In this document: piece after piece, positions 1 through 12,608 of the stretch
How positions within the stretch are numbered: position 1 is the first letter of the stretch
Layout of the letters: each line of letters opens with the position of its first letter
From: Idiomarina sp.
GTDB taxonomy: Bacteria > Pseudomonadota > Gammaproteobacteria > Enterobacterales > Alteromonadaceae
DNA length: 64,000 bases
NCBI GenBank assembly: GCA_020831965.1
Contig: JAFIFP010000010.1
Location: 1-64,000 of the forward strand
Reading direction: 5' to 3'
The notes under the pieces: generated by a model
Databases searched by the model: none
The model's input: only the letters and a program-made list of their open reading frames with translations
What the model was told of the DNA's origin: nothing
Translations under genes and position numbers: made by a program

Positions 1-38
1 CAGCGCATCGCAAGAATTCCACAGGGCGGAGCGCGGCA

Positions 39-142
39 GTCCAACAAGGCGATGAAAAGGCGCTTTCTGGTTTTGTGAAGCATCCTGAAGTGAGGGTGTT
101 TTTTTAGTGCCGGTTTGGCGCCTATTATCTAAAGCGTTAGAG
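39..142 (+). repeat. attC-like integron recombination site
   Basis: The left end carries GTCCAAC and the right end GTTAGAG, matching the RYYYAAC / GTTRRRY core pair of attC sites. The outer 25 bases of both sides can be paired with bulges; the shared stretch is AGGCGC on the left and GGCGCC on the right. The cassette that owns this site lies left of the window, and the next cassette begins inside the right core. I judged this by eye; no folding was run. Confidence 0.6.
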
Positions 143-149
143 TTCAAGA

Positions 150-539
150 ATGTTTTCAACAGTAATTCGCTATACATACACTGAATACAAGTCGATAGTA
201 GACGCGGTTATGTTGCATGAGTTGTGCTACGCTGCTGTTACAAAGTGGCACTTTAAGTACTTTTCGCATCCGATTTGCTTTTGTATTTTCATGTTTAAAT
301 CAATAACTGAGGGTACTTGCCAGTTTGTTTTTACCGAAGATGGCTTTGAACGTAAATCAAATTCAGGAAGTACTCAGACGCAATGGTCAGAGATTGGCAA
401 GGTTGTTGACATAAAAGATGCGTTTCTACTTGTTGGTGCAATTGACGGTATAGCGCCATTGCCAAAGCGATGCTTATCGCAAGAGCAAATCAGTCTTATA
501 AAAAGCTGGGCCGGGAGTAAATTAGTAAGTGAACTCTAA
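150..539 (+). CDS. YcxB-like hypothetical protein (integron cassette)
   Basis: A 129-residue protein. The second half (about residues 53-120) reads like the C-terminal domain of YcxB-family proteins: a short beta-rich stretch with a WSEIGKV segment, then a FLLVG strand, then PLPKR followed by a predicted helix. No function is established for that family; members are usually membrane-attached and of unknown role. The N-terminal half is richer in aromatic residues and Cys and may be a degenerate membrane segment. The gene starts 8 bases after one attC core and its last codons overlap the next attC, the usual packing of a cassette gene. Translation probably depends on a weak upstream site, because no clear Shine-Dalgarno is seen. 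The family call is moderate. Confidence 0.65.
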   Translation: MFSTVIRYTYTEYKSIVDAVMLHELCYAAVTKWHFKYFSHPICFCIFMFKSITEGTCQFVFTEDGFERKSNSGSTQTQWSEIGKVVDIKDAFLLVGAIDGIAPLPKRCLSQEQISLIKSWAGSKLVSEL

Positions 540-632
540 CAAATTGCTTAATTTCGTTCCGGCCACAAACGGCGTGGCCTCCACTGGACTGCCTACGCTG
601 CGCTGCGGCAGCCAATTAGCAAAGCGTTATGC
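534..632 (+). repeat. attC integron recombination site
   Basis: Begins CTCTAAC and ends GTTATGC. The inner boxes TTGCTTAATT on the left and AATTAGCAA on the right are complementary apart from one extra base, which is the extrahelical-base arrangement typical of attC. The middle holds a second GC-rich imperfect hairpin. The site closes the YcxB-like cassette and opens the SRA-HNH cassette. Confidence 0.75.
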
Positions 633-652
633 ATCAGTAGTAAGAGGAAGTT

Positions 653-1531
653 ATGTCAGATAAGAAGAAGGAGCGTGTCTTTGGCCATATTCCAGGTACC
701 ACGGTAGGCCAACTATTCCCAGACAGAGTATCGCTTGCTAAGTCAGGTATCCATTCCCCAACACAAGCTGGCATAAGTGGTGCTGCATCTGAAGGCGCAG
801 ACTCAATTGTCCTGTCTGGTGGATATGAAGATGATGAAGATTACGGCTCTGAAATTATCTATACAGGAGCCGGTGGCCGTGACCAAAACACGGGAAAGCA
901 GGTTGCTGACCAGACATTAGAGAGAAGCAATCTTGCGTTAGCAAAGAGCAAGATTGAAGGCTACCCTGTTCGTGTCATACGTAGCCACACTCACAAGAGC
1001 CCATACTCACCAAAAAAAGGCTATCAATATTCTGGTCTGTACTTCGTTGATGATTACTGGCGTGAGCGAGGTCATTCAGGTTTCGACGTGTGGCGGTAAC
1101 GTCTCCTGTCCTACGACCAACAGCCGAACCTCAGTACTGTCAATGAGCCGCCTCCTGAATACGGTAAAACCAAACGGAAAGAAACCACTGTCCAGCGTTT
1201 AGTGAGAGATACAGCTGTCGCAAAAAATGTTAAGCGCTGGCACAAATATCAGTGCCAAGTCTGTGGAGTCGCACTGGAAACGAGCGCAGGCCTCTATGCT
1301 GAAGCAGCTCATATACAACCGTTGGGTGAGCCTCACAATGGGCCTGATGTAGAGAACAACGTTATCTGCCTTTGCCCAAATCACCATGTGCTCTTTGATA
1401 ATGGCGGGTTCGCCATTGCAGATGATCTTAGCTTGATAGGTTTGAGTGGCACGCTAAGGACATTGAAAAAACACACCATTGGCCTTGAGTTCATCAGATA
1501 CCACCGCGAGCACTATCAGGCCAATACATAA
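653..1531 (+). pseudogene. SRA-HNH modification-dependent endonuclease, one in-frame stop
   Basis: One 293-codon reading frame is interrupted by a single TAA at 1097-1099 (codon 149). Before the stop, residues 7-148 form an SRA/YDG domain, which flips out and binds modified cytosine: HIPGTTVGQLF, then GADSIVLSGGYEDDEDYG, IIYTGAGGRD and KQVADQ. After the stop, in the same frame, comes an HNH nuclease with CQVCG (about residue 201), AAHIQPLG (about 219) and ENNVICLCPNHHVLFDNG. Joined SRA-HNH proteins are known restriction enzymes that cut DNA with modified cytosine, acting against modified phage DNA. The stop follows VWR, where the domain continues RLLSYDQQP, so a sense codon (probably Tyr) was lost by one substitution. 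A GTG at 1202 could restart the nuclease half alone. Either the gene is dead, or it is read through, or the base is an assembly error. Confidence 0.85.
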
Positions 1532-1582
1532 CCAGTAACATCACCGGTCGCGCGGAACGCGCCGGTGTGCTTGGCGTTAAAT
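1526..1582 (+). repeat. Short attC-like integron site
   Basis: 57 bases from ACATAAC to GTTAAAT. The core contains a strong hairpin with CACCGG on the left and CCGGTG on the right around a GC-rich loop. The left core overlaps the last codons of the HNH gene. Its size equals that of the shortest well-known attC sites. The left seven bases (ACATAACC) recur at the start of the site at 3631. Confidence 0.65.
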
Positions 1583-1592
1583 AGGATACCCG

Positions 1593-2894
1593 ATGAATAA
1601 ATTTCTTTGCATCACACTTACTCTGCTCTGTATTTCATGTGCCAAAGACACTACGACTCATAATGTTGCCTATATCAATGGGCAATGGTTCGATGGCGAA
1701 ACGTTTGTCGATCGTACATTATACAGCTCAGACGGATATTTTACTGACCAAGAACCATCACGTATTGATTCTACGGTAGATTTAAACAGAAAATTTGTTA
1801 TACCGCCATTTGGAGATGCACATACTCATAATTTAGAAGCTCCGGAACAGCTAAATGAGATGGAATCAAAGTACATAAAAGACGGTATCTTTTACGTTCA
1901 GGTCCTTACAAATCACGCCTCGAAAGTCGCAAGCTTTCGCGATGAGTTTAATAAACCTGAAACTATCGATGTAATGTATGCAAATGGAGGGCTCACGAGC
2001 ACTTTAGGCCATCCGTTTGTTGCTTTTGAGACGTCTGCAATGGGTTTACACTGGTCTGCTATGTTCACGCAAAGAGACAGAGTTATGCAAAGCCGTCTGG
2101 TTGAAAATGATGCCTACTGGTTTTTGGATAATCCCGAAGAAGTACAAGAAAAATGGGATAACATAATGGCTACTAATCCCGATCTCCTCAAGATCTATCT
2201 TATTAGAACTTCTGAACATGATGATTTAATTAATACGAATAACATGGGGAATTTCGGACTTTCAGCAAGTACTGCACAGGCTATTGTAACAAAAGCCAAA
2301 GAACGTGGATTGCGTGTTGTAGCTCATGTTGAAACAGCCGAAGATTTTCGCATTGGTCTTGATATAGGAGTAGATGGATTCGGACACTTACCCGGTTACA
2401 GCTGGAATGCTGAAGCAGATAGTGAAGAATACAGGCTCACAGATGAAGACTTGCGAAGAGCTGCACAGGCAAATGTATATGTAACCCCAACCGTAAATTT
2501 CGCTCGTGTTTATGCAACAAAATATGACAAAAATGGAATGTCGAGTGTGGATGATGAACGGCTAAGGATAGTCAACCAATTCTTAAAAAGTGAACTCAAG
2601 CGTCTGCACGAAGCCGGTATCACTATTGCGATGGGATCAGATCAGCAGGGTGAGACCAGTCTGCTTGAATTGAATTATATTCACGAAGAACTCCAGATAT
2701 TTGACAATGCTACTTTGCTGCAAATGGCTACTTATACTACGCCACAGGCGATTTTCCCTGGTCGTTTAATTGGTAAATTTGAAAATGGATACGAAGCCAG
2801 TTTTTTAGCTTTAGACAGTAATCCATTAATTCATTGGTCTGCGCTAAAAGAAATATCTATGCGAATAAAGCAGGGAAATATTATTGAGCCTTAA
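1593..2894 (+). CDS. Amidohydrolase-family lipoprotein
   Basis: A 433-residue protein with a lipoprotein signal peptide: a hydrophobic run after MNKF and a lipobox ISC with Cys at about 16, so it should be membrane-anchored outside the cytoplasm. The rest is a metal-dependent amidohydrolase barrel of the imidazolonepropionase-like type: a GDAHTHN motif (HxH metal ligands, about residue 75), VVAHVETAEDF and GHLPGYSW for the later histidines, and AMGSDQQGE for the catalytic Asp near residue 351. Key residues look intact, so a hydrolase of an amide, ester or cyclic substrate is likely; the substrate cannot be told. The gene is visibly more AT-rich than the chromosome to the right, which suits acquired cassette cargo. 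The start is an ATG preceded by AGGATA. Confidence 0.75.
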   Translation: MNKFLCITLTLLCISCAKDTTTHNVAYINGQWFDGETFVDRTLYSSDGYFTDQEPSRIDSTVDLNRKFVIPPFGDAHTHNLEAPEQLNEMESKYIKDGIFYVQVLTNHASKVASFRDEFNKPETIDVMYANGGLTSTLGHPFVAFETSAMGLHWSAMFTQRDRVMQSRLVENDAYWFLDNPEEVQEKWDNIMATNPDLLKIYLIRTSEHDDLINTNNMGNFGLSASTAQAIVTKAKERGLRVVAHVETAEDFRIGLDIGVDGFGHLPGYSWNAEADSEEYRLTDEDLRRAAQANVYVTPTVNFARVYATKYDKNGMSSVDDERLRIVNQFLKSELKRLHEAGITIAMGSDQQGETSLLELNYIHEELQIFDNATLLQMATYTTPQAIFPGRLIGKFENGYEASFLALDSNPLIHWSALKEISMRIKQGNIIEP

Positions 2895-2916
2895 AGAATT
2901 GATAGTTTAAGAAAAA

Positions 2917-3003
2917 TAATAAGCAAATCAAGCGGACGCGTTTGCGTTTAGTTGCTTACATTCAAGGATTTAGTCGTGCCGCTTTTTTTCCAGACCGTTA
3001 TGC
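2917..3003 (+). repeat. Possible degenerate attC site
   Basis: The right end has GTTATGC, the same core as the site ending at 632, and CCGCTTT there pairs with CAAGCGG near 2929. The left core lacks a clean AAC. The position between the amidohydrolase and the Phd gene is where an attC is expected. Confidence 0.35.
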
Positions 3004-3023
3004 CTCTTGACTGGACCTGTTAA

Positions 3024-3045
3024 CTGGTGCTATTAATAGCACCAG
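3024..3045. promoter_or_regulatory. Perfect palindrome, likely antitoxin operator
   Basis: A perfect 22-base palindrome with half-site CTGGTGCTATT lies 22 bases upstream of the Phd-like antitoxin start. Type II toxin-antitoxin pairs are usually repressed by the antitoxin, or the complex, on such palindromes. Autoregulation is inferred from position and symmetry. Confidence 0.6.
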
Positions 3046-3066
3046 ATTGTTGGTTAGGTAATCACT

Positions 3067-3336
3067 ATGCAAGTGAAATTTTCTGAGGATGTTATTCCTC
3101 TATCAGACCTGAAGGTCAATCCCGGAAAGGTGGTTGGTCGAGCACAGGAAACGCATCGCCCAATCCTGCTCACCAGTCGTGGTCGTGGCATAGCTGTGGT
3201 TCAGGGGCTCGAGGATTATGAGAGAACCGCAGAGGAATTGCGGTTTGTAAAGGCGGTGGCGCAAGGGCTTATGGATGTTCGCGAGGGAAACACCGTATCG
3301 TTGGAGGACGCCAAGAATACGTTGGGCATCAAGTAA
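3067..3336 (+). CDS. Phd/YefM-family antitoxin
   Basis: An 89-residue protein. The N-terminal two thirds matches the Phd/YefM fold: DVIPLSDLKVNPGKVVGRA, then RPILLTSRGRGIAVVQGLEDYER, the strand-helix dimer that binds operator DNA. The C-terminal tail after residue 60 would wrap and block the toxin. It is encoded directly before a ParE-like toxin: its stop TAA is followed at once by the toxin ATG. The ribosome site AGG at 3056-3058 sits inside a GTTAGGT sequence. Such pairs are common stabilisers of large cassette arrays. Confidence 0.85.
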   Translation: MQVKFSEDVIPLSDLKVNPGKVVGRAQETHRPILLTSRGRGIAVVQGLEDYERTAEELRFVKAVAQGLMDVREGNTVSLEDAKNTLGIK

Positions 3337-3636
3337 ATGGAATTACGCATCGCACAGTCCGCTCTTGAGGATTTACAGGCTATTCAGGAATATTACAGAG
3401 AACAGGATGTGCCACATATTGGCAATGATTTTGTGGCTGCTATTCTGGAGCATTGTGAAATGCTTCAAATCCACCCTGATGCTGGCCGAGTTGTTCCTGA
3501 ATTCAACATAGATCATATTCGCGAATTGATTCACGCGCCATTTCGAGTTGTCTATCTCAGGCAGGCTAAAGAGGTTGTGCTGATAAGAGTCTGGCGGAGT
3601 GAGAGGCAGCTCGAGGTACCAGCAAACGAAACATAA
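3337..3636 (+). CDS. ParE/RelE-superfamily toxin
   Basis: A 99-residue protein with the ParE-type layout. Two N-terminal helices (SALEDLQAIQEYYREQD and the following FVAAILEHCEMLQIHPDAGR) lead into a beta sheet, RELIHAPFRVVYLRQAKEVVLIRVWRSERQL. The pattern HPDAGR, then RELIHAPFRVVY, then VWRSER is typical of ParE toxins, which poison gyrase, although relatives cut mRNA. The target is not settled by sequence. It starts immediately after the antitoxin stop, so translation is coupled. It looks full-length and intact. Confidence 0.85.
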   Translation: MELRIAQSALEDLQAIQEYYREQDVPHIGNDFVAAILEHCEMLQIHPDAGRVVPEFNIDHIRELIHAPFRVVYLRQAKEVVLIRVWRSERQLEVPANET

Positions 3637-3708
3637 CCAAGCTATGAACCGGAAGCTAAACCTTCCACTTCGCCGGGGTTTTGTTACCGGTGAACGCGGG
3701 CGTTAGCG
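3631..3708 (+). repeat. attC-like integron site
   Basis: Starts ACATAACC, overlapping the toxin stop codon, and ends GTTAGCG. An inner GAACCGG on the left can be aligned with the reverse complement of ACCGGTGAAC on the right. It closes the Phd-ParE cassette. Confidence 0.55.
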
Positions 3709-3791
3709 AATGTCTGGGTATGCTAGTGATGCATTTTGCGGAAGTCGCCTTGTAAATACCCCATTTATAACACAGTCATCTCGTAGAATAT

Positions 3792-4601
3792 TTATGCCGC
3801 ATTTCGGTACTCAAATGGCGTCATATCATTGAGTGAATCGTGCGGTCGTTCGTTGTTGTATAGCTCAATCCAGTCTTCGGTTATTTGTTTTACTTCATTC
3901 AGGTTGTTGAAAATGTAGCAGTCGAGTACATCGTCACGATAAGTTCGGTTGAACCGTTCAATATATGCGTTCTGATATGGGCATCCGGGCTTAATGTAAT
4001 CAATCATAATGTCATGGGCTTTTGCCCAGTTCACGAATACTTCTGAGGTGAATTCGCTGCCACTATCAACCCGAATTTTTTCAGGGTAACCGTGCCATTC
4101 AGCAAGTTGGTCAAGATAGCGTATGACGCGCAATGACGGCATGCTGGTCGCAATATCAATACCCAATACTTCGCGATTAAAATCATCAATCACGTTAAAT
4201 GTGCGAAACCTAACTTTGTTGTGCAGGCTGTCGCTCATAAAGTCCATTGACCAAGACTTACCCAGGGCATCTGGAGCAGCTAATGGCTCTGGATTGCGGT
4301 TGGGTAAGCGCTTTTTACCTTTGCGCCGCAGGTTCAGTTTTAGCTCAGTGTAAACGCGATAAACACGCTTGTGATTCCAGCGGTGGCCTAGCTTACGAAG
4401 GCGTTTGAAGCACTTCGGGAAGCCCCACCGATGATGCCTTTCGACTAAAGCATTCAAAACATCAATGATTTCATCATCATCGGTCAGCTTCGGCTCGTAA
4501 TAGTAGGCGGTTCGGCTGATGCCAACCACATCACAGCACTTTACAACGCTTGCTTTATACTGCACCTGCAACTCGCGTGCCCAGATTTTTCGTTCTGTCA
4601 C
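3792..4601 (-). CDS. IS3-family transposase OrfB (DDE)
   Basis: A 269-residue part with a helix-turn-helix-like leader (KCCDVVGISRTAYYY) followed by an rve-type integrase core. The first catalytic Asp is in WSMDFMSD, the second in RVDSGSEFT, and the Glu in NAYIERFNRTYRDDVLD; the tail ends NNERPHDSLNDMTPFEYR. It carries out strand cleavage and transfer when fused to OrfA. The GTG at 4601 gives a stand-alone start, but the active transposase is expected from a -1 frameshift on orfA, which joins KK from orfA to ALAPVTERK. Confidence 0.9.
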   Translation of the reverse strand: MTERKIWARELQVQYKASVVKCCDVVGISRTAYYYEPKLTDDDEIIDVLNALVERHHRWGFPKCFKRLRKLGHRWNHKRVYRVYTELKLNLRRKGKKRLPNRNPEPLAAPDALGKSWSMDFMSDSLHNKVRFRTFNVIDDFNREVLGIDIATSMPSLRVIRYLDQLAEWHGYPEKIRVDSGSEFTSEVFVNWAKAHDIMIDYIKPGCPYQNAYIERFNRTYRDDVLDCYIFNNLNEVKQITEDWIELYNNERPHDSLNDMTPFEYRNAA

Positions 4602-4606
4602 AGGTG

Positions 4607-4867
4607 CTAGAGCTTTTTTATAATGTCTTCTTGCATCTGTGATTTGAGGCTCAGCTCTGCATACATCTGCTTAAGCCGGCGGTTTTCTTCTTCAAGCTCT
4701 TTTAAGCGGCGCACATCCGATGCTTCCATACCGCCGTACTTTTCGCGCCATTTATAAAACGTTGAATTACCGATACCGTACTTACGGCAGATGTCTTTTA
4801 CCGGCATGCCGGCTTCGGCTTCTTTTAAAATCGCCACAATCTGGCTTTCTGTCATGCGTTTGCTCAT
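4607..4867 (-). CDS. IS3-family OrfA, DNA-binding subunit
   Basis: An 86-residue protein: a helix-turn-helix (QIVAILKEAEAGMPVKDIC, then RKYGIGNSTFYKWREKYGG) followed by a leucine-zipper-like coiled coil, RRLKELEEENRRLKQMYAEL. This is the terminal-repeat recogniser and dimerisation half of IS3-type transposases. The stop TAG lies four bases beyond a slippery run of A, so a fraction of ribosomes should shift into orfB. Confidence 0.9.
   Translation of the reverse strand: MSKRMTESQIVAILKEAEAGMPVKDICRKYGIGNSTFYKWREKYGGMEASDVRRLKELEEENRRLKQMYAELSLKSQMQEDIIKKL
4613..4619 (-). other. A6G slippery site for -1 frameshifting
   Basis: On the minus strand the end of orfA reads ATTATAAAAAAGCTCTAG. The heptamer AAAAAAG is the standard IS3 slippery sequence. 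A -1 shift there continues into the orfB frame with no stop before its GTG. Confidence 0.8.
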
Positions 4868-5044
4868 CGTAAAACCCCTTTGTTTTAGTTTAAAAGAAAT
4901 TCTACGAGCAAGCTGTATTATTTTACTGGGTAGTTACATGATGCCGTTGAATAAAAAATGGAATATATGGGTAAAAGTCCTTAAGGCTAAGGGAAAATGT
5001 CCGCTTTTGACAAAAATTGGATATGGCGAAGTGATGCAGGTAAC

Positions 5045-5116
5045 GTATAACAAGCGCAATCAGTCGGAAAAATTACTCGCTGCGCTCCCAATTTTCCGCT
5101 GTTGCGAGCGTTAGCA
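5045..5116 (+). repeat. attC integron recombination site
   Basis: Starts GTATAAC and ends GTTAGCA. The inner boxes CAAGCGCAA on the left and TTGCGAGCG on the right pair, followed inward by GGAAAA / TTTTCC. It is one of the clearest sites in the array. It closes the short cassette that holds the IS and opens the BrnT/BrnA cassette. Confidence 0.75.
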
Positions 5117-5143
5117 ACCGCACTTTTCTACCCTTCTTGCTAA

Positions 5144-5173
5144 ATGAGTAAAAAAGCAATAATTTATACTCAT
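5144..5173. promoter_or_regulatory. Inverted repeat over the brnT start
   Basis: Arms ATGAGTA and TACTCAT are separated by 16 AT-rich bases. The right arm contains the brnT start codon. BrnA is a known repressor of its own operon, so this is a candidate operator; the match to any known BrnA site was not tested. Confidence 0.4.
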
Positions 5174-5435
5174 GCACATTTTTGAGTTTGATAATGATAA
5201 GAGCCAAGCGAATCTAAAGAAGCATGGAATCGACTTCCGTGACGCGCAGGCCTTATGGGGTGACCAGGATTTACTTGAGATTCAAGCAAAGACTGCCGAT
5301 GAACCTCGCTACCTCGTTATTGGTCTTATTGGTAGCAAACACTGGTCCGCTGTTATCACTTACCGAGGGGAGAAAATTCGTCTCATCTCGGTAAGGCGCT
5401 CGCGTAAGAGAGAGGTAGAGTTGTATGAAAGCTAA
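5172..5435 (+). CDS. brnT: BrnT-family ribonuclease toxin
   Basis: An 87-residue protein with the BrnT pattern: MHIFEFDNDKSQANLKKHGIDF at the start, DDxKxxxNxxKHGI-like, then a region with DLLEIQA and EPRYLVIGLIGSK, and a C-terminal VITYRGEKIRLISVRRSRKREVELYE. BrnT has a RelE-like fold and is a type II toxin that cuts RNA. The toxin gene precedes the antitoxin, as is usual for brnTA. It overlaps brnA by 11 bases. All family landmarks are present, so it should be active. Confidence 0.9.
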   Translation: MHIFEFDNDKSQANLKKHGIDFRDAQALWGDQDLLEIQAKTADEPRYLVIGLIGSKHWSAVITYRGEKIRLISVRRSRKREVELYES

Positions 5436-5691
5436 AGATTTTGACGCCAAATTTGATGAAGGCGCTGACGATATTATTGACGAGCTAAACGTTAAGAGTG
5501 CGCGCCGAGTAAATCAAGAAGCGAAGCGCATCAATGTCGACTTCCCTGCCTGGGTGGTTGAATCGCTGGACCGTGAAGCTGCTCGAATTGGCGTGACTCG
5601 GCAATCGATTATTAAAGTTTGGCTTGTAGAGCGTTTACGGGCTGAAGCTGCTAACAAACCGCTGAAAGATGACGCCGCAAGCAGAAGTTGA
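5425..5691 (+). CDS. brnA: BrnA-family antitoxin
   Basis: An 88-residue protein. An acidic N terminus (KFDEGADDIIDEL) leads to a ribbon-helix-helix DNA-binding part, RINVDFPAWVVESLDREAARIGVTRQSIIKVWLVERL, as in BrnA. It should neutralise BrnT and repress the operon. The start lies inside brnT behind a GAGAGGTAGAG ribosome site. The last dozen residues (KPLKDDAASRS) overlap the start of a second, broken antitoxin-like frame. Confidence 0.88.
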   Translation: MKAKDFDAKFDEGADDIIDELNVKSARRVNQEAKRINVDFPAWVVESLDREAARIGVTRQSIIKVWLVERLRAEAANKPLKDDAASRS

Positions 5692-5927
5692 ACAGCATCT
5701 GGAAGCAATCGCCAGCAGGCTGCTGCCGTAGCAAAGACTAGGCGATCAACCAGGCATTGTTGGAATACATAGAAAAGCAGCAGCTTGAGCAAGAGCGGTG
5801 GAAACAAACGTTAGAGGCAATGGAGTCTGCTGCCCAAAGCAAGGTTGTTGATGCCATCGAGGTTCACAGTTGGCTTAATAGCTGGAGAATCGAAAACGAG
5901 CAGGATGCGCCGCGATCAGGTAAGTGA
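5669..5927 (+). pseudogene. Remnant of an antitoxin gene
   Basis: The ATG at 5669 opens a frame reading MTPQAEVEQHLEAIASRL that stops at TAG 5729. From about 5733 a different frame reads AINQALLEYIEKQQLEQERW and ends SWRIENEQDAPRSGK at TGA 5925-5927. Joined, these resemble CopG/RelB-type antitoxins with a helix rich in Q, E and W. At least one frameshift separates the halves, so no full protein is made. The end overlaps a ParE-like start by four bases, the usual coupling of such pairs. Confidence 0.6.
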
Positions 5928-6036
5928 AGCTGGTTTACACGGACGAAGCCATTGATGATTTGAAACGCCTTAGGGAGTTCATTGCGGATCACAGCCCGCA
6001 TAACCAGTCGCATCAATGCGCGCCTTGAGCGTTAGG
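5924..6036 (+). pseudogene. Truncated ParE-like toxin remnant
   Basis: From GTG 5924 the frame reads VKLVYTDEAIDDLKRLREFI, then ADHSPH, matching the N terminus of ParE toxins. After that the homologous residues (SRINARLER) continue in another frame, consistent with loss of two bases. The sequence then meets TAG inside GTTAGGT at 6031-6037. The remaining two thirds of the toxin is missing. A short CGCAT/ATGCG hairpin with CATAAC on its left makes the end look attC-like. Confidence 0.55.
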
Positions 6037-6066
6037 TTCTTACAAACCGGAAATGATGAGTCAAAG

Positions 6067-6654
6067 ATGAAATTTCGAATGTTCGCCTGCTTACTTAGCA
6101 CCCTACTTTTGGTTAGCTGCACTACAGCGCTCTGGTCTCCTAACTACTATAGCGAGAAAATCGACGGTTTCTATCTCACGCCCGAAACGCTTGACTTAAT
6201 TGTCACAAGCCAGAATACAGCTTATATTTTCCCTGTCACGGACCAGTTCGCCAACGCGCTGCTTCTCTCGAGAGAGATCAACTTTCATCCCTCATTTCCT
6301 GACTTCGCCCTTGATAACGAAAATCAAATCAGCGGCACGGTCAGACTTGTCTATCGTGACGAGCAGTCATCCCCCGAACTCTTAGACCAACTTCACGCAC
6401 TTGGCTTCCGACAGGCTGGATTAAATAGCTACGTACTTAACACTCACATTTCTGGAAAAAAGTATCAGATTCAAGGCGAAATTCCGTTGGAGAAACTAGA
6501 ACAACCCGTTATTGTGAGCATCGCACAGCCGCTAACGCGCAGTGACACCGTGAGAAAACTCGTCGCCACGCCGGTAACAATAACTTACGACGCTGTGGTT
6601 GTAGTTCCGCTGACGGTTGTGGTTTTTACCTTTGTCGGATTGTTAAGTCGTTAA
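6067..6654 (+). CDS. Hypothetical lipoprotein
   Basis: A 195-residue protein beginning MKFRMFACLLSTLLLVSC, a clean lipoprotein signal with lipobox LVSC and Cys at about 18. The ATG at 6067 is preferred to upstream in-frame starts because it places the signal at the very N terminus. The mature part has no motif I recognise and contains a hydrophobic C-terminal stretch (VVVVPLTVVVFTFVGLL) that may be a second membrane contact. The function is unknown. It sits just beyond the last attC-like core and could be the final cassette or the start of flanking DNA. Confidence 0.6.
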   Translation: MKFRMFACLLSTLLLVSCTTALWSPNYYSEKIDGFYLTPETLDLIVTSQNTAYIFPVTDQFANALLLSREINFHPSFPDFALDNENQISGTVRLVYRDEQSSPELLDQLHALGFRQAGLNSYVLNTHISGKKYQIQGEIPLEKLEQPVIVSIAQPLTRSDTVRKLVATPVTITYDAVVVVPLTVVVFTFVGLLSR

Positions 6655-6783
6655 AGTCGCCACGTTCCAGGTCATCTTCGAGTCTAGATTCAGTATGAAT
6701 TACGACGAATTATTTGCTGGTTACTGAACTACCAAGTAGAGTTAGAAAACAACAACATTGTGCTAGCCGCCGGAGATTCAAGA

Positions 6784-7161
6784 ATGATTAAACTATCCGT
6801 ATCGCTTCTTTTGTGCGCCCTACTTCTCGGCTGCTCATCCCCTATGGTTCATGAAATTACAGGCCAAGTGCGCCCGGCAATCTCTCCCTCCGAAGTTGTG
6901 GTTTACCGCAATATTCCACCAAACTACGAAGAGATCGCGATTCTTATTGCCTCAAGCCCAAAAACCGCAACTGTGGGTGATGAGTCGACTACTCAAGCCT
7001 TGTTTAATCAACTCCAAATCGAAGCGGCGGCTCTGGGCGCGAATGGCGTAATCGTAACCGAATTGGTGGACGAGCCAGTCGACGTTCGAACAACCAATTA
7101 CGATGGGACGAGCTACAACTCTAGGCTTGAAACGCGGTTTCAAAGAACTGCAAAAGCCTAA
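6784..7161 (+). CDS. Small hypothetical lipoprotein
   Basis: A 125-residue protein. Its signal peptide MIKLSVSLLLCALLLGC has lipobox LLGC with Cys at 17. The mature part includes VVVYRNIPPNYEEIAILIAS and LQIEAAALGANGVIVTEL; an AxxLGAN motif of this kind occurs in small envelope lipoproteins with a YbjQ/RcsF-like fold. That resemblance is weak. The start at 6784 follows GGAGATTCAAG and fits the signal peptide. Role unknown. Confidence 0.6.
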   Translation: MIKLSVSLLLCALLLGCSSPMVHEITGQVRPAISPSEVVVYRNIPPNYEEIAILIASSPKTATVGDESTTQALFNQLQIEAAALGANGVIVTELVDEPVDVRTTNYDGTSYNSRLETRFQRTAKA

Positions 7162-7231
7162 GCGGTTTATATTGAGTAACTCCCGCTAGCTGCGTCCGCG
7201 AATTCTGACGCTTCAATAAAAGGAAGAGCTC

Positions 7232-7681
7232 ATGACCGCTACCCATAAATGCATGTGGACCGGACAACAGGATTCGCGCACCATTGCCATCAGTCTGCTA
7301 ACGGTCGATCGCGTAGGCAAACCTGTAGAGAAAACTGCCTACGTATTGCCCGAGCATGAGCAGGCACTACGTCGCTCTAATCGTAGTTTTGCCAACCACG
7401 GTCGGCTTTTCTTTAGAGTGATGATGATTCTTGTCTTCACCAGTTTGCTCACCGCTATTCTCTCAATTTTTGCACCCGTGTCCGATGACCTGTTATTGAG
7501 CTTTATGGGTATCTGTCTAGCCCTTGCTGGCGGGCTATTTATCGTTTTTCCTTTTGCAAGTCACGAAACCATCGACTGGTTGGGCACTCGCAAAGCGAGT
7601 CTATTGTCGCGCAGCCTCGGAGTCGCTATTGCCGTTGTTGGCATCGTTATCTTGGCCTACGCGAATCATTTGATTTGGTAG
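7232..7681 (+). CDS. Hypothetical inner-membrane protein
   Basis: A 149-residue protein with a soluble N-terminal part of about 60 residues and three predicted membrane helices near residues 62-83, 88-108 and 128-147. A good ribosome site (AGGAAGAG) precedes the ATG. I do not recognise the family. It reads in the same direction as its neighbours but is separated by about 70 and 185 bases, so an operon is not clear. Confidence 0.55.
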   Translation: MTATHKCMWTGQQDSRTIAISLLTVDRVGKPVEKTAYVLPEHEQALRRSNRSFANHGRLFFRVMMILVFTSLLTAILSIFAPVSDDLLLSFMGICLALAGGLFIVFPFASHETIDWLGTRKASLLSRSLGVAIAVVGIVILAYANHLIW

Positions 7682-7865
7682 ATTGAACGCTACGAATCCA
7701 TGCCCGTCACCTTTGGTGGTGTGCTACCTCTGTTGGTTGTTAGGGTGGTCAGTCTCTGGTCTTTCGTTGCACGCTTTATTGGCGTACAGATTTTAGGTAT
7801 GTTTAGAAGAGTTAAGTCAGGCTCATAGTTTCCACTTCATAAAAACAACTAATAAAGGATATCTC

Positions 7866-8219
7866 ATGACTTTGTTCACCCGCTTGTTGGCATTAGCTGC
7901 GTTTCTGCCCTTTGCAACAGTTGCAGAGACCTACTCGGTTTCCGCCACCCTGTCCCATCAAGGCGCGCCCTTCGCAAGCCCATCGGCAGTTGTTCGCAGT
8001 GATACCCCGGCTGCTATCGAGGTCACGGGTGACCAAGGCTTCCGCCTCACGTTGACACTCACCGACTTAGACGCGGATCAGATTAAAGTGAACACCTCAC
8101 TTGAGTCAGCATTTGGTAGCATGGCCCCGGAAGTAACCTTGCGGCCCGGTGCCCCTGCAACCGTCATTATTGGCGACCTAGGCTTAACTTTATTAGTTCA
8201 ACGCAACTCGCAAGAGTGA
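7866..8219 (+). CDS. Hypothetical periplasmic protein
   Basis: A 117-residue protein with a Sec signal peptide (TLFTRLLALAAFLPFATVAE, cleavage near AETYS). The mature part is beta-rich (ETYSVSATLSHQGAPF, then GFRLTLTLTDL and GDLGLTLLVQ) with no Cys and no catalytic motif. AAGGATATCTC precedes the ATG. It ends 16 bases before a gene for an outer-membrane-like protein, so the two are probably co-transcribed. Function unknown. Confidence 0.6.
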   Translation: MTLFTRLLALAAFLPFATVAETYSVSATLSHQGAPFASPSAVVRSDTPAAIEVTGDQGFRLTLTLTDLDADQIKVNTSLESAFGSMAPEVTLRPGAPATVIIGDLGLTLLVQRNSQE

Positions 8220-8235
8220 ACCGGTATTTCATAGT

Positions 8236-9423
8236 ATGAAGGGTTTTGTGCCCGCATTACGCTCATTATGCTTCTGTGCGCTTTGCATTGGTTTATTTGC
8301 GTCCGGCTGGATCAATACCGCCAATGCGAGCGACGCGCTAGAGAATGGTGCGGAGCAAGGCTCTCCTGAAGACGAAGTACCACTTTTCGATGAAGACGAC
8401 GCTTTTATTGATCCCGTTAGCCTCTATTACACACCTGCCATAGAGCGGACCTTTCGCTATCGCATAGAGCAGATTATTAGTGAGAGAGCACGTCTTGGCG
8501 TCTCAATGTTTCACGAAGACTTTCCTATTATTCCGGGCTGCGTACCCGTTGAAGGCTTTCATCAACTTGCTGTAGCCGATCGCACTCACCACCTAGCTTC
8601 TCGTGGTGTTTGTTTCCCTGGCCAATGGCTTGATAATTTCTTTGCCGATGAAGACAGCCCTCCCTATGCCGCAAGCACCCTAGTGCGCGTAATGTATTTC
8701 TCGCGCTGGCAACAAGGTGAGTCGCACATTGGTGGCACGCGGATCGACGGGCAAATTAGTCTGAACAACATTTCTAACCGGCTCTCGTTAGTCTTGCGCA
8801 GTGCCGACAAAGACGACGACTTACTGCGTGAACGGGTCGACATTGCGAGTCCAGATGATCGGGGGAAAGCCCGAGCAGCGGTGCGCTGGGCCACGTCGCT
8901 CGGACGCCAAGCAAGTTCTCGTACAGACGTGGGAATGCGTGGAAGTACGCCCTTCGTGCGCACTCGCTTTCGCTATAACCAAGCATTAGTCGGCGGTATT
9001 CATGGGCGGTTTAATCAGGAGTTTTATTGGCGAGGTAATGACGATCGGCGTGGCATGGTTTCAGAGCTACAACTTGGCCGTCGTTTAACCACTAATACCA
9101 CGTTGCGTGCTACCTCTACCGCAGAGTCCAACAGCGCGCTCCGCGACGAAGGCACCCCTTGGCAATGGTCTCAGAGTGTGAGTCATTTCTGGCGCATTGC
9201 ACATCGGACAGGTGTGCAAACTTTAGCAAGGGTCGAAGGCAATTATGAGGATCAAAACCGAGTGCAGAGCCGTCAGTACAGCATGCGGTTCCGAAGTAGC
9301 GTATTACGCCCCTGGATTTACTACGAAATTGAGCCCTTTGCGTTACAAATGCGTGAGAATGACTTTCGCACCTCGCGCGGTATTATGTTTCGATTTGAAG
9401 TGCAGTTCGGCGACTACCACTGA
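8236..9423 (+). CDS. Hypothetical outer-membrane beta-barrel-like protein
   Basis: A 395-residue protein. An N-terminal signal (LCFCALCIGLFASGW ... ANA) is followed by an acidic segment, then from about residue 150 a long series of alternating, amphipathic strands rich in Arg, Ser, Thr and aromatic residues (TRFRYNQALVGGIHGRFNQEFYWRG split over two strands), ending EVQFGDYH. This strand pattern suggests an outer-membrane barrel. Two Cys pairs in the N-terminal part could form disulphides. I know no function. It pairs with the small periplasmic protein upstream. Confidence 0.6.
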   Translation: MKGFVPALRSLCFCALCIGLFASGWINTANASDALENGAEQGSPEDEVPLFDEDDAFIDPVSLYYTPAIERTFRYRIEQIISERARLGVSMFHEDFPIIPGCVPVEGFHQLAVADRTHHLASRGVCFPGQWLDNFFADEDSPPYAASTLVRVMYFSRWQQGESHIGGTRIDGQISLNNISNRLSLVLRSADKDDDLLRERVDIASPDDRGKARAAVRWATSLGRQASSRTDVGMRGSTPFVRTRFRYNQALVGGIHGRFNQEFYWRGNDDRRGMVSELQLGRRLTTNTTLRATSTAESNSALRDEGTPWQWSQSVSHFWRIAHRTGVQTLARVEGNYEDQNRVQSRQYSMRFRSSVLRPWIYYEIEPFALQMRENDFRTSRGIMFRFEVQFGDYH

Positions 9424-9517
9424 GCTATATCCGCAATCCGTTATGTCAGCACAATTTAATCCTTTTCCCCGTAAACTCGAGTCCCAAGTTCATTGCTTAA
9501 ATAGCACTCACCCACTA

Positions 9518-9542
9518 AACTGTACGGTAACTCCGTACAGTT
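9518..9542. promoter_or_regulatory. Inverted repeat, likely YefM operator
   Basis: Arms AACTGTACGG and CCGTACAGTT flank five bases and end 11 bases before the antitoxin ATG. The E. coli YefM-YoeB operator is built from palindromes centred on TGTACA; the TGTAC/GTACA cores here fit that. Binding is inferred. Confidence 0.65.
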
Positions 9543-9553
9543 GAGGCTTTATT

Positions 9554-9826
9554 ATGGATTCGGTCAGCGTAAACCAGTTTCGAGATAACTTAAAAGCTTA
9601 TGTAGAACAAGCTGTTAGCAACCATACCCCACTGAAAGTGACCCGCCGTTCAGGCGAGGCATTTGTGGTGATGAGTGCCGATGACTGGGAGCGCGAACAG
9701 GAAACCCTTTATGTGCTCCAAAATACCAACCTGATGCAACAAGTTGCGGAGTCTGCTGTAACTCACGCGCAAGGCAAAGGATATTCCCCCAAGGACGAGG
9801 ACATCCATGAGATCACTGGTCTTTGA
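9554..9826 (+). CDS. yefM: YefM antitoxin
   Basis: A 90-residue protein of the Phd/YefM family: VNQFRDNLKAYVEQAVSNHTPLKVTRRSGEAFVVMSADDWE is the DNA-binding dimer part, and the tail LYVLQNTNLMQQVAESA then GKGYSPKDED wraps the toxin. It is encoded just before yoeB and overlaps it by 20 bases, as in many yefM-yoeB modules. It should repress the pair through the inverted repeat upstream. Confidence 0.9.
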   Translation: MDSVSVNQFRDNLKAYVEQAVSNHTPLKVTRRSGEAFVVMSADDWEREQETLYVLQNTNLMQQVAESAVTHAQGKGYSPKDEDIHEITGL

Positions 9827-10079
9827 AAGTAACTCTTGGGCTGCCTATGAGCGACTCCGTGACAAAGATAGAAAGTTACACCAAACGCTGTGCAAACAAC
9901 TGACAGAAATGTTGCGCGCGGATCCCGCAAAAGGCTTAGGTAAGCCTGAACAACTCAAGCATAATCTATCAGGTCTTTGGTCGAGAAGAATCTCACAGAA
10001 AGATCGCGTGGTTTATAAATTCGATGAGCACCATGTCTATATTTTTGCTACTGGCGGCCACTATGATCAAATACCTTAG
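9807..10079 (+). CDS. yoeB: YoeB toxin (ribosome-dependent mRNA interferase)
   Basis: A 90-residue protein of the YoeB/Txe family. It begins RSLVFESNSWAAYERLRDKDRK, carries GLGKPEQLKHNLSGLWSRRI with the conserved LxGxWSRRI core, and ends RVVYKFDEHHVYIFATGGHYD. In E. coli YoeB the catalytic residues are a Glu in the LKHxLxG region, an Arg in SRRI and a C-terminal His and Tyr; the equivalents (E, R, H, Y) appear present. It cuts mRNA in the ribosomal A site. The start lies inside yefM. Confidence 0.92.
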   Translation: MRSLVFESNSWAAYERLRDKDRKLHQTLCKQLTEMLRADPAKGLGKPEQLKHNLSGLWSRRISQKDRVVYKFDEHHVYIFATGGHYDQIP

Positions 10080-10158: not shown

Positions 10159-10234
10159 GCGCCGCCCCTGAAAACAGGGATTTTGCTATGTCTTGGTCGC
10201 GGGACGTAGCCCATTTATTTTTGGAGATAACTCA

Positions 10235-10879
10235 ATGAGTAAACCAGTTTACGAATTCCAAGCTGAGATCCGTAACGACTTAGGTAAAGGTGCGAGCCGC
10301 CGCCTGCGTCGCGAAAACTTAGTCCCAGCTATTTTATACGGCGGAAACGCTGAAGCGGTCTCTTTGACCCTTCAACACGATAAAGTAAACAATGCTGCTG
10401 ATCACGAAGGCTTCTACAGCCACATTCTGACTCTGCATATTGACGGCAAGAAGCATCAAGCTATCGTGAAAGACATTCAGCGTCACCCATTCAAGCCGAA
10501 AATCAATCACCTAGACTTCCAACGCGTTAGCGCGAAAGAAGAGCTACACACCAACGTACCGCTTCACTTCCTGAACGAAGAAGCGATTCAGAAAACTGGT
10601 GCTGTGATTGTTCACCACTTGAACGACGTGGAAATCACCTGTTTGCCAAAAGACCTGCCAGAGTACATTGAACTTGACCTGGCTGGCTTAGAAATTGGTG
10701 ACAACCTGCATTTGAGCGACATCGTTGTGCCTAAAGGCGTAACTTTGGTTGAGCTTACGCGCGGTGACGACCACAACCAAACCGTCGTAACCATCACGGC
10801 TCCGAAGGTTGAGAAAGAAGTCTCTGAAGACGAAGCTGCCAGCGACGCCGCTGACAGCAGCGAAGACAACGCCGAATAA
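10235..10879 (+). CDS. rplY: Ribosomal protein bL25, CTC form
   Basis: A 214-residue protein with the L25 domain ([20 protein letters not shown] at the N terminus, then LVPAILYGG) that binds 5S rRNA, plus the extra C-terminal beta domain of the longer CTC form and an acidic tail. E. coli L25 is only the short domain; the long form is usual in many other gammaproteobacteria. The ATG at 10235 is preceded by GGAG and matches the family start. It is followed by pth and ychF, a very common order. Confidence 0.95.
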
Positions 10880-10894
10880 GCGAGTCTCGCTAGG

Positions 10895-11488
10895 ATGTCC
10901 GCAGACATTCGTCTTATCGTGGGCCTGGGGAATCCAGGCCCCGAATATGAACAAACCCGGCATAACGCCGGGTTTTGGTTCATAGAAGCCCTTGCCCGCC
11001 AATTTCAAGCTTCACTTGCTACCGATCCAAGTTATTTCGGCATGACAGCACGCCTTGCACCGCCATTTCAGGATGTGCGCCTGCTAATGCCTATGACTTT
11101 TATGAATCGGAGCGGAAAATCGGTCGGCGCCCTCGCCTCTTTCTTTAAAATTAGCCCCGAGCAAATGCTGGTCGTTCACGACGAGTTAGATTTGCCGCCA
11201 GGAGTCGCTCGTTTTAAACAAGGTGGTGGTCACGGTGGTCATAACGGCCTGCGTGATATCATTCCTGCGCTTGGGAATAACAACAACTTTCATCGCTTGC
11301 GGATCGGCATTGGCCACCCCGGTCATAAAGACCGTGTGACCGGCCATGTGCTTGGGAAACCGCCCGCAAACGAACGTGAACTCATTGAAGCCAGCATTGA
11401 CGAGTCTGTGCGCGGCGTAGAACGTGCATTGCGTGAAGGTTGGCGCGAAGCAAAACAGTACTTACATTCAGTTCGCTTAAGCGACTGA
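10895..11488 (+). CDS. pth: Peptidyl-tRNA hydrolase
   Basis: A 197-residue cytosolic enzyme that frees tRNA from peptidyl-tRNA dropped by ribosomes. Motifs: [21 protein letters not shown] with the catalytic His in RHNAG, FMNRSG, and [11 protein letters not shown] with the catalytic Asp, then [15 protein letters not shown]. Length is normal. It starts 15 bases after rplY and is probably co-transcribed. Confidence 0.97.
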
Positions 11489-11516
11489 CACACTGAGACG
11501 ACATACGGATTAAATT

Positions 11517-12608
11517 ATGGGATTCAAATGCGGAATCGTTGGCTTGCCCAACGTAGGAAAATCAACCTTGTTCAACGCTTTAACCAAAGCGGGCATTGAT
11601 GCTGCGAACTTCCCTTTCTGTACCATTGAGCCGAATACCGGCGTGGTTGCAGTGCCTGATACGCGTTTGGATGAGCTTGCGGCGATTGTGAAGCCACAGA
11701 AAATCATTCCAACCACGATGGAATTCGTCGACATTGCCGGTCTAGTGAAAGGTGCCTCAAAAGGTGAAGGTCTTGGTAACCAATTCCTTGCCAACATTCG
11801 TGAAACCGACGCCATTGGCCATGTGGTGCGTTGCTTTGACGACGAGAACATTGTGCACGTGGCCGGCCGCGTTGACCCACAAGACGACATCGACACCATT
11901 AATACTGAACTCGCGTTGGCCGACCTCGACTCTGTTGAGAAAGCTATTCATCGCTTAGGCAAGAAAGCCAAAGGCGGCGACAAGCAAGCTAAAACCGAAA
12001 TGACTGTTCTCGAGCGCTTGCTGCCTGCTTTATCTGAAGGCCACATGGCACGTTCCGTGGAGCTTAGCGACGACGAGCGTAAGGTCATTCGTTCGTTCAA
12101 TCTGTTAACTCTCAAGCCGACCATGTACATCTGTAACGTCGCGGAAGACGGCTTTGAGAACAATCCATTCTTGGACCAAGTGCGCGAAATCGCCTCACGG
12201 GAAAACGCCATTGTGGTGCCTGTATGCGCCGCCATTGAGTCTGAAATTGCTGAGCTAGAAGACGAAGAAAAGACCGAATTTCTCGATTCGATGGGTCTGA
12301 CCGAACCAGGTCTGAACCGTGTCATTCGTGCCGGCTACGAACTCCTGAACTTGCACACCTACTTCACTGCCGGTGTCAAAGAAGTGCGCGCGTGGACGGT
12401 GAAGAAGAATTCTACCGCACCGCAAGCCGCGGGCCGTATTCATACCGACTTCGAGAAAGGCTTTATTCGCGCTGAAATCGTTGGCTATGACGACTACATT
12501 AGCAATCAGGGTGAGCAAGGTGCAAAAGACGCAGGGAAATGGCGCTTAGAAGGAAAAGAATACATCGTAAAAGACGGTGATGTGATTCACTTCCGGTTTA
12601 ATGTTTAA
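11517..12608 (+). CDS. ychF: Redox-regulated ATPase YchF (Obg family)
   Basis: A 363-residue protein, the full family length. G1 is [14 protein letters not shown]; the switch region holds [21 protein letters not shown]; NxxE (NVAED) replaces NKxD, which is why this member prefers ATP. The C-terminal TGS-like domain ends [12 protein letters not shown]. It associates with ribosomes and takes part in translation and stress responses. It ends the rplY-pth-ychF group before a terminator. Confidence 0.97.

Follow-up and report, generated by a model that had tools for sequence, protein, structure and literature searches.

A cassette array in Idiomarina as the probable second arm of a chromosomal integron with an inverted attI pair

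The window analyzed here is the whole stretch of 64,000 nucleotides at the left end of contig C4 of an Idiomarina sp. genome (GCA_020831965.1, JAFIFP010000010.1; hereafter the source genome), and it opens with a series of gene cassettes and attC recombination sites. A sequence-only reading had taken this series for an integron cassette array, which an attC model trained without sites of the source genome confirmed. Our preferred explanation, which we consider highly probable, is a chromosomal integron with two heads, each with a working attI site, in which the array forms arm 2 and the integrase gene (intI) lies on another contig, C14. IntI would recombine the attC of circular cassettes with either attI, and cassettes would accumulate outward on both sides of intI. 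Arm 1 would be the usual arm, on the 5' side of the gene, and arm 2, on its 3' side, would extend from C14:458 down to position 1, across an unsequenced gap and through positions 1-6037 of the window. The two-headed anatomy is well supported; we infer that IntI acts on attI2 and that arm 2 is expressed, and the direction of replication is likewise inferred, from GC skew only.

An inverted attI pair flanks the integrase gene

The window has no intI, as the sequence-only reading had noted, but the gene is not missing from the genome. The search for it returned one integron integrase on contig C14 (704-1642, minus strand), the left end of this contig facing the left end of the window, so that synteny puts intI to the left of the array. 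The encoded protein (322 amino acids) is intact and is the sole protein of the genome to pass the TIGR02249 cut-off (399.6 bits for a cut-off of 265), which no protein of 14 control genomes passed. Its residues 4-318 align with the solved integron integrase 2A3V (E = 7e-85) and the R-K-H-R-H-Y motifs, which we take to be the catalytic residues, are present. The nearest relatives among named genomes are IntI proteins of Aliidiomarina, with 91-93% identity.

Around intI lies a perfect 36-nucleotide inverted repeat (C14:456-491 and 1926-1961, 100% complementary), which holds the attI core and stops 4 nucleotides beyond the cut. An attI beside intI with a cassette junction at G/TT is present on C14 and in relatives, and the order on C14 is attI2 on the minus strand, about 200 nucleotides, intI, about 265 nucleotides, and attI1 on the plus strand. 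On the 5' side of intI, attI1 is followed by one clear attC (C14:2581-2652, E = 4.6e-7), then by two cassettes whose attC seem damaged by eye, one encoding a protein 92.6% identical to a cassette protein of A. halalkaliphila and the other a YefM/YoeB pair.

A core search found the inverted pair flanking intI, with at most 9 mismatches of 36, in seven loci: those of the source genome, Aliidiomarina bin40, A. halalkaliphila, A. celeris (two loci), Idiomarina bin46 and genome G013 (G005 being taken as bin40, G012 as A. halalkaliphila and G002 as bin46). Of 295 genomes of the family, 8 contain the core motif, 7 of them from the same genus, against 1 match for a reversed-pattern control; among the 19 core-pattern matches, only paired ones were accepted as two-headed, and a match in G001 that lacks GTT was not taken for attI. 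No LexA-type box (CTG-N10-CAG) lies between intI and the two cores in the seven loci.

Conservation breaks off at both cuts. Over the 21 locus pairs, mean identity in the 32 nucleotides before the cut is 0.85 for attI1 and 0.87 for attI2, and falls at nucleotides 3-50 after it to 0.32 and 0.30, a pattern that cassette insertion at both sites would leave. It argues against a frozen relic, in which two integrons fused head to head and lost one intI, leaving attI2 and arm 2 as inactive fossils: before the cut, attI2 is no less conserved than attI1, and beyond it the sequence differs among all seven loci. We regard this explanation, which accounts for the origin of the layout and does not exclude its use, as improbable. 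The stretches between intI and each attI can be aligned across loci, with identities of 0.58 and 0.49 at positions -60 to -41. When the flanks of attI1 and attI2 of one locus are compared outside the core, their similarity exceeds that of shuffled sequences in 6 of 7 loci (no more than 2 of 300 shuffles), and in 5 of 7 the best match falls at equal offset; this points to a longer attI copy.

Some attI sites occur outside this arrangement. A third attI in A. celeris (L063:4383-4418, plus strand), about 5 kb from the two-headed core, is followed at 4506-5050 by relatives of the Phd/ParE pair of the window with 34-36% identity. Genome G013 has solo attI with arrays (L165, L166), and G015 and G003 (L168, L169) have attI accompanied by intI fragments or without intI.

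attC sites of the window

Purpose-built attC models were derived from sites beside intI of other bacteria, taken from 63 intI loci in named genomes with the sites of the window excluded. A crude consensus descriptor without a bulge had missed most attC sites, because true attC carry an extrahelical base and the outer R' bases derive from the neighbouring cassette. The first model, R1, has a trimmed central loop and holds 27 sites, none from Idiomarinaceae; of 36 input matches from 21 of the 63 loci, 8 were dropped by eye (7 non-canonical and 1 near duplicate) and 1 more during alignment. R1 penalised long central loops and missed such sites, and a second model, R2, was therefore made with full loops. 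It comprises 39 sequences and 13 base pairs and draws on 39 of the 40 sites whose spacer has 5 nucleotides, leaving out all 27 whose spacer has 6; 19 of its 39 sequences come from Idiomarinaceae other than the source genome, and none from the source genome itself. In the training sets of R1 and R2, 87% of cells are paired against 25-41% when the partner column is slid (25-39% for R2 alone), a contrast partly built in because the sites were picked partly by pairing. Two of five covariation measures of R2 were not above shuffles (453 of 500 and 225 of 500 shuffles). The window was searched with R2 over all 64 kb and both strands with filters off, and an Rfam search of positions 1-10000 gave no relevant match. 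The sites are as follows.

39..142, plus strand: attC site 1, 104 nt (R2 E = 1.4e-3; position/pair scan 38.0)
534..632, plus strand: attC site 2, 99 nt (R2 E = 7.1e-6)
1526..1582, plus strand: attC site 3, 57 nt (R2 E = 2e-6; R1 E = 3.3e-4)
3631..3708, plus strand: attC-like site 4 with weak L arms, 78 nt (scan 21.1; R2 E = 6.9)
5045..5116, plus strand: attC site 5, 72 nt (R2 E = 4.3e-9)
5998..6037, plus strand: short terminal attC-like site, marginal, 40 nt (R2 E = 0.23; R1 E = 0.14)

Four window sites thus show the R''-L''-L'-R' organization with an extrahelical base at R2 E values of 1.4e-3 or below, as does one more on C14. The sequence-only reading had listed five sites, of which those at 39, 534, 1526 and 5045 stand well above chance (E from 4.3e-9 to 1.4e-3) and the one at 3631 stays weak (E = 6.9). 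R1 retrieved in the window only the site at 1526 (E = 3.3e-4) and, marginally, that at 5998 (E = 0.14), which is probably the outer end of the arm. The score of site 3631 lies near those of decoys: the position/pair scan gave a minus-strand match of 22.4 within window 1-9000, and the background yields 1 match of at least 20 per 140 kb-strand. In its favour, a site of equal length follows a homologous ParE gene in A. celeris (L047:8385-8462; R1 E of only 0.45). Neither the position/pair scan nor R2 found an attC between the end of the amidohydrolase gene (2894) and the start of phd (3067).

An R2 search of the source genome, with 150 of 537 candidates scored, listed the window sites at 5045, 1526, 534 and 5998, one site on C14, one each on C11 and C7 and a weak one on C9; sites 39 and 3631 are absent from the list drawn from these 150 candidates. 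The sites on C11 (148760-148837, 33.6 bits) and C7 (147230-147315, 33.0 bits) are lone attC far from the integron.

Arrays on both sides of intI in related genomes

In attC scans of five related loci, intI has outward-pointing sites to either side, those of one side on the strand opposite to those of the other, apart from a few low-scoring matches oriented otherwise, and in six of the seven two-headed loci both arrays are on a single contig. The position scan placed attC on the 3' side and outward strand in 5 of 5 Idiomarinaceae loci and in none of the 58 remaining intI loci. Of these 58, 31 carry one or more attC on the normal side, and in a few the available downstream sequence is short. R1 applied to eight loci gave 48 matches at E ≤ 1, none wrongly oriented, and recovered both arms at E ≤ 0.05 in 5 of the 6 two-headed loci searched, the arm-1 site of bin40 reaching E = 0.86.

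In the congeners G006 and G011, whose IntI are more distant, the array is confined to the 5' side of intI. In a FastTree phylogeny of 61 IntI, which places the two-headed IntI among gammaproteobacterial sequences, a single clade (support 0.982) unites the seven two-headed loci; G006 branches next to it and G011 farther out. Since all seven share one IntI clade, the second attI most likely arose once.

Placing the window beside C14

The assembly separates the array from intI, and the genes nearest the left end of C14 are not conserved in relatives; synteny was therefore taken from C14 27-54 kb and compared with the core genes of the window.

10193..12608, plus strand: core genes rplY, pth and ychF, used for placement (ychF in 17 of 17 genomes of the genus; we presume pth from its position between rplY and ychF)

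In three of four relatives (G008, G006 and G005), the counterpart of gene C14:36934-37977 directly adjoins that of C4 rplY, and the order of the C14 block is as expected for reversed C14 followed by forward C4. GC skew is unbroken over the join (-0.076, then -0.067). Among the other 26 contig ends (6 kb each), no attC scored 20 or more, and five matches scored 16-20. Position 1 of C14 falls inside the first cassette of arm 2. A protein bridging the ends of C14 and C4 was not found in 246 genomes of the family, where the open reading frame (ORF) at the C14 end gave one weak match outside its own genome (E = 6.7e-4); it looks GIY-YIG-like by eye, which Pfam does not confirm. Because synteny and skew make the left ends of C14 and of the window face each other, the window array would lie on the 3' side of intI and form arm 2. 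The probable physical join is read from synteny and GC skew, and in relatives intI and both arrays are seen directly on single contigs.

The same evidence bears on whether the array belongs to an ordinary one-armed integron severed by a contig break, or is a cluster of attC sites lacking an integrase (CALIN). The window alone looks like a CALIN, since it begins at a contig end and has no intI, and lone attC do exist on C11 and C7. However, C14 already has intI, attI1 and an arm of its own, and it is its opposite end that faces C4; attI2 and 3'-side arrays occur on unbroken contigs in relatives. With intI and attI2 in the genome, and an integrase near the array if synteny is followed, we hold this alternative to be very improbable.

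Cassettes shared between arms

The sequence-only reading had ascribed the cassettes to several sources, on which the comparison of loci bears in part: two window cassettes have relatives at 77-94% protein identity in other integrons of the same genus, and the others matched nothing in the compared loci. The Phd/ParE pair of window arm 2 corresponds to one in arm 1 of A. celeris (91-93%), and BrnT cassettes occur in arm 2 of the source genome and of A. celeris and, in G006 and G011, in the only arm present (77-95%). An unannotated gene pair is found in arm 2 of bin40, in arm 1 of A. celeris locus B and in one-armed G011 (94-100%; 94-96% between bin40 and A. celeris). The first arm-1 cassette ORF of C14 matches arm 2 of bin40 with 98.8% identity over the 83 amino acids before the contig end. 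As judged from these matches, an overlapping cassette pool reaches both arms, through either attI or through inversion of the core.

Near-identical cassettes whose arm differs between species (arm 2 in one, arm 1 in another) speak further against a frozen relic. They also leave room for a different route, in which arm 2 received most of its content when the intI core inverted between both attI and so swapped the arms. Integron integrases can recombine attI with attI (in the excerpt of PMC8946536), and cassettes do lie on different sides in different species; the conservation of the flanks between intI and attI is no argument against inversion, because they would travel with intI. However, only single cassettes, never whole arms, are found on the other side. 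We therefore consider such filling unlikely as the main route; it overlaps with the two-headed integron proposed here and would also need two working attI.

Points against two working arms

Several observations weigh against the proposed integron with two functional heads. The assembly does not join C14 to C4, and the gap is unsequenced; in the fourth relative, G012, it is other C14 genes (27-34 kb) that lie near rplY, at 4-12 kb and in varying orientation. With R2, two of the six window sites have weak or marginal scores. In G013 the attI flanks have no similarity outside the core, their score being attained by 224 of 300 shuffles, and for A. celeris locus B the flanks match best at a different offset. 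An arm-2 promoter was not found, with 2 promoter-like sites against 2.1 expected by chance. Finally, the integrase is broken in four of the seven two-headed loci, so that those arms may be inert.

The broken integrases also favour the frozen relic, as do two-headed cores that have no intI or a fragment of it: L163:9718-10206 (G005:C8) has a divergent attI pair, attC on both sides and no intI, and L164:5431-6128 (G015:C2) has the same arrangement with an intI fragment only. By their sequence organization, both are relic two-headed cores. Intact intI is found in 3 of 7 two-headed versus 47 of 58 other loci (Fisher p = 0.044, the two one-armed congeners being scored intact although the G011 gene is split near its end). 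We attach little weight to this excess of broken genes in two-headed loci, because exact peptide patterns were used to collect the loci, which are not independent of one another.

Relation to known integrons

The element resembles the sedentary chromosomal integrons of the Vibrio, Shewanella and Xanthomonas type in its TIGR02249-family IntI, attI, attC arrays and toxin-antitoxin cargo, and differs from them in that a single intI is flanked by an inverted attI pair and by arrays diverging on its two sides. Where the canonical one-armed layout has one attI and an array on the 5' side only, a second attI lies here 3' of intI, with an array there in relatives. One attI in each integron is what the excerpt of PMC3607928 describes. 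We found no description of a second, inverted or two-sided attI, or of an Idiomarina or Aliidiomarina integron of this layout, in the literature searched, which was mainly open-access.

In the reverse integron of Treponema, according to the same excerpt, intI is transcribed toward attI and the cassettes lie 3' of intI in the co-transcribed direction (PMC3607928). The integron described here shares these 3'-side cassettes and their direction of transcription, the same as that of intI. The Treponema element, as described, has attI and cassettes on the 3' side only, whereas attI1 and arm 1 are here retained on the 5' side. Complex class 1 integrons such as In104 of SGI1 have a first and a second attI in one element (PMC7056807, in excerpt). 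They are thus similar in having more than one attI per element. We take their second attI to come from duplicated segments, not from an inverted pair around a single intI.

Experimentally inverting the array of Vibrio cholerae increased cassette excision, lowered fitness and resulted in integrase loss, and recombination between two insertion sequences in the array can re-invert an inverted array (PMC11023631). The two-headed integron would offer a natural matched pair, with the same cell, the same IntI and an overlapping cassette pool in opposite directions relative to the replication fork. As both array orientations coexist, the effect of orientation on storage and shuffling is testable without an engineered inversion. 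In addition, second arms severed by a contig end, as in the window, would pass for CALINs.

More tentatively, and with considerable doubt, we suggest that through the inverted pair IntI also flips the segment carrying its own gene (attI1 x attI2), that the arms have opposite fates (a store where the recombining attC strand is on the leading-strand template, a shuffling arm where it is on the lagging one) and that the cost of the second arm drives repeated breakage of intI. Judged by GC skew, the arm that runs with the replication fork holds more attC in two of four loci (A. halalkaliphila, bin46) and fewer in the other two (source genome, G013); replication orientation was thus rejected as a predictor of arm size.

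Cargo of the window cassettes

The genes between the attC sites, and an insertion sequence among them, are listed below.

150..539, plus strand: YcxB-like cassette ORF (PF14317, E = 6.4e-9)
653..1531, plus strand: SAD_SRA (653-1099; PF02182, E = 2e-48) and HNH_2 (1202-1531; PF13391, E = 3.1e-14) cassette
1593..2894, plus strand: amidohydrolase-family cassette ORF (PF01979, E = 1.6e-11; N-terminus lipoprotein-like by eye)
3067..3636, plus strand: Phd/YefM antitoxin (3067-3336) and ParE toxin (3337-3636) cassette (Pfam)
3751..4937, minus strand: IS3-family insertion sequence inside a cassette (orfA 4607-4867, orfB 3792-4601; Pfam)
5172..5691, plus strand: BrnT toxin (5172-5435) and ribbon-helix-helix protein (5425-5691) cassette (RHH_5, E = 7e-4, under cut-off)

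The SAD_SRA and HNH halves share a frame, as judged by eye, and are parted by one in-frame stop; the cassette probably represents a broken SRA-HNH gene, that is, an inactivated modification-dependent nuclease. The termini of the IS3-family element were read by eye as TGTAAATACCCC and TGTAACTACCCA, and no target duplication was seen in its flanks by eye. Window 5757-6000, which separates the BrnT cassette genes from the terminal site, holds a short ORF, for which Pfam gave no match, and a ParE-like fragment seen by eye; together they are perhaps a decayed second toxin-antitoxin pair. The ribbon-helix-helix protein encoded at 5425-5691 is probably the antitoxin of BrnT.

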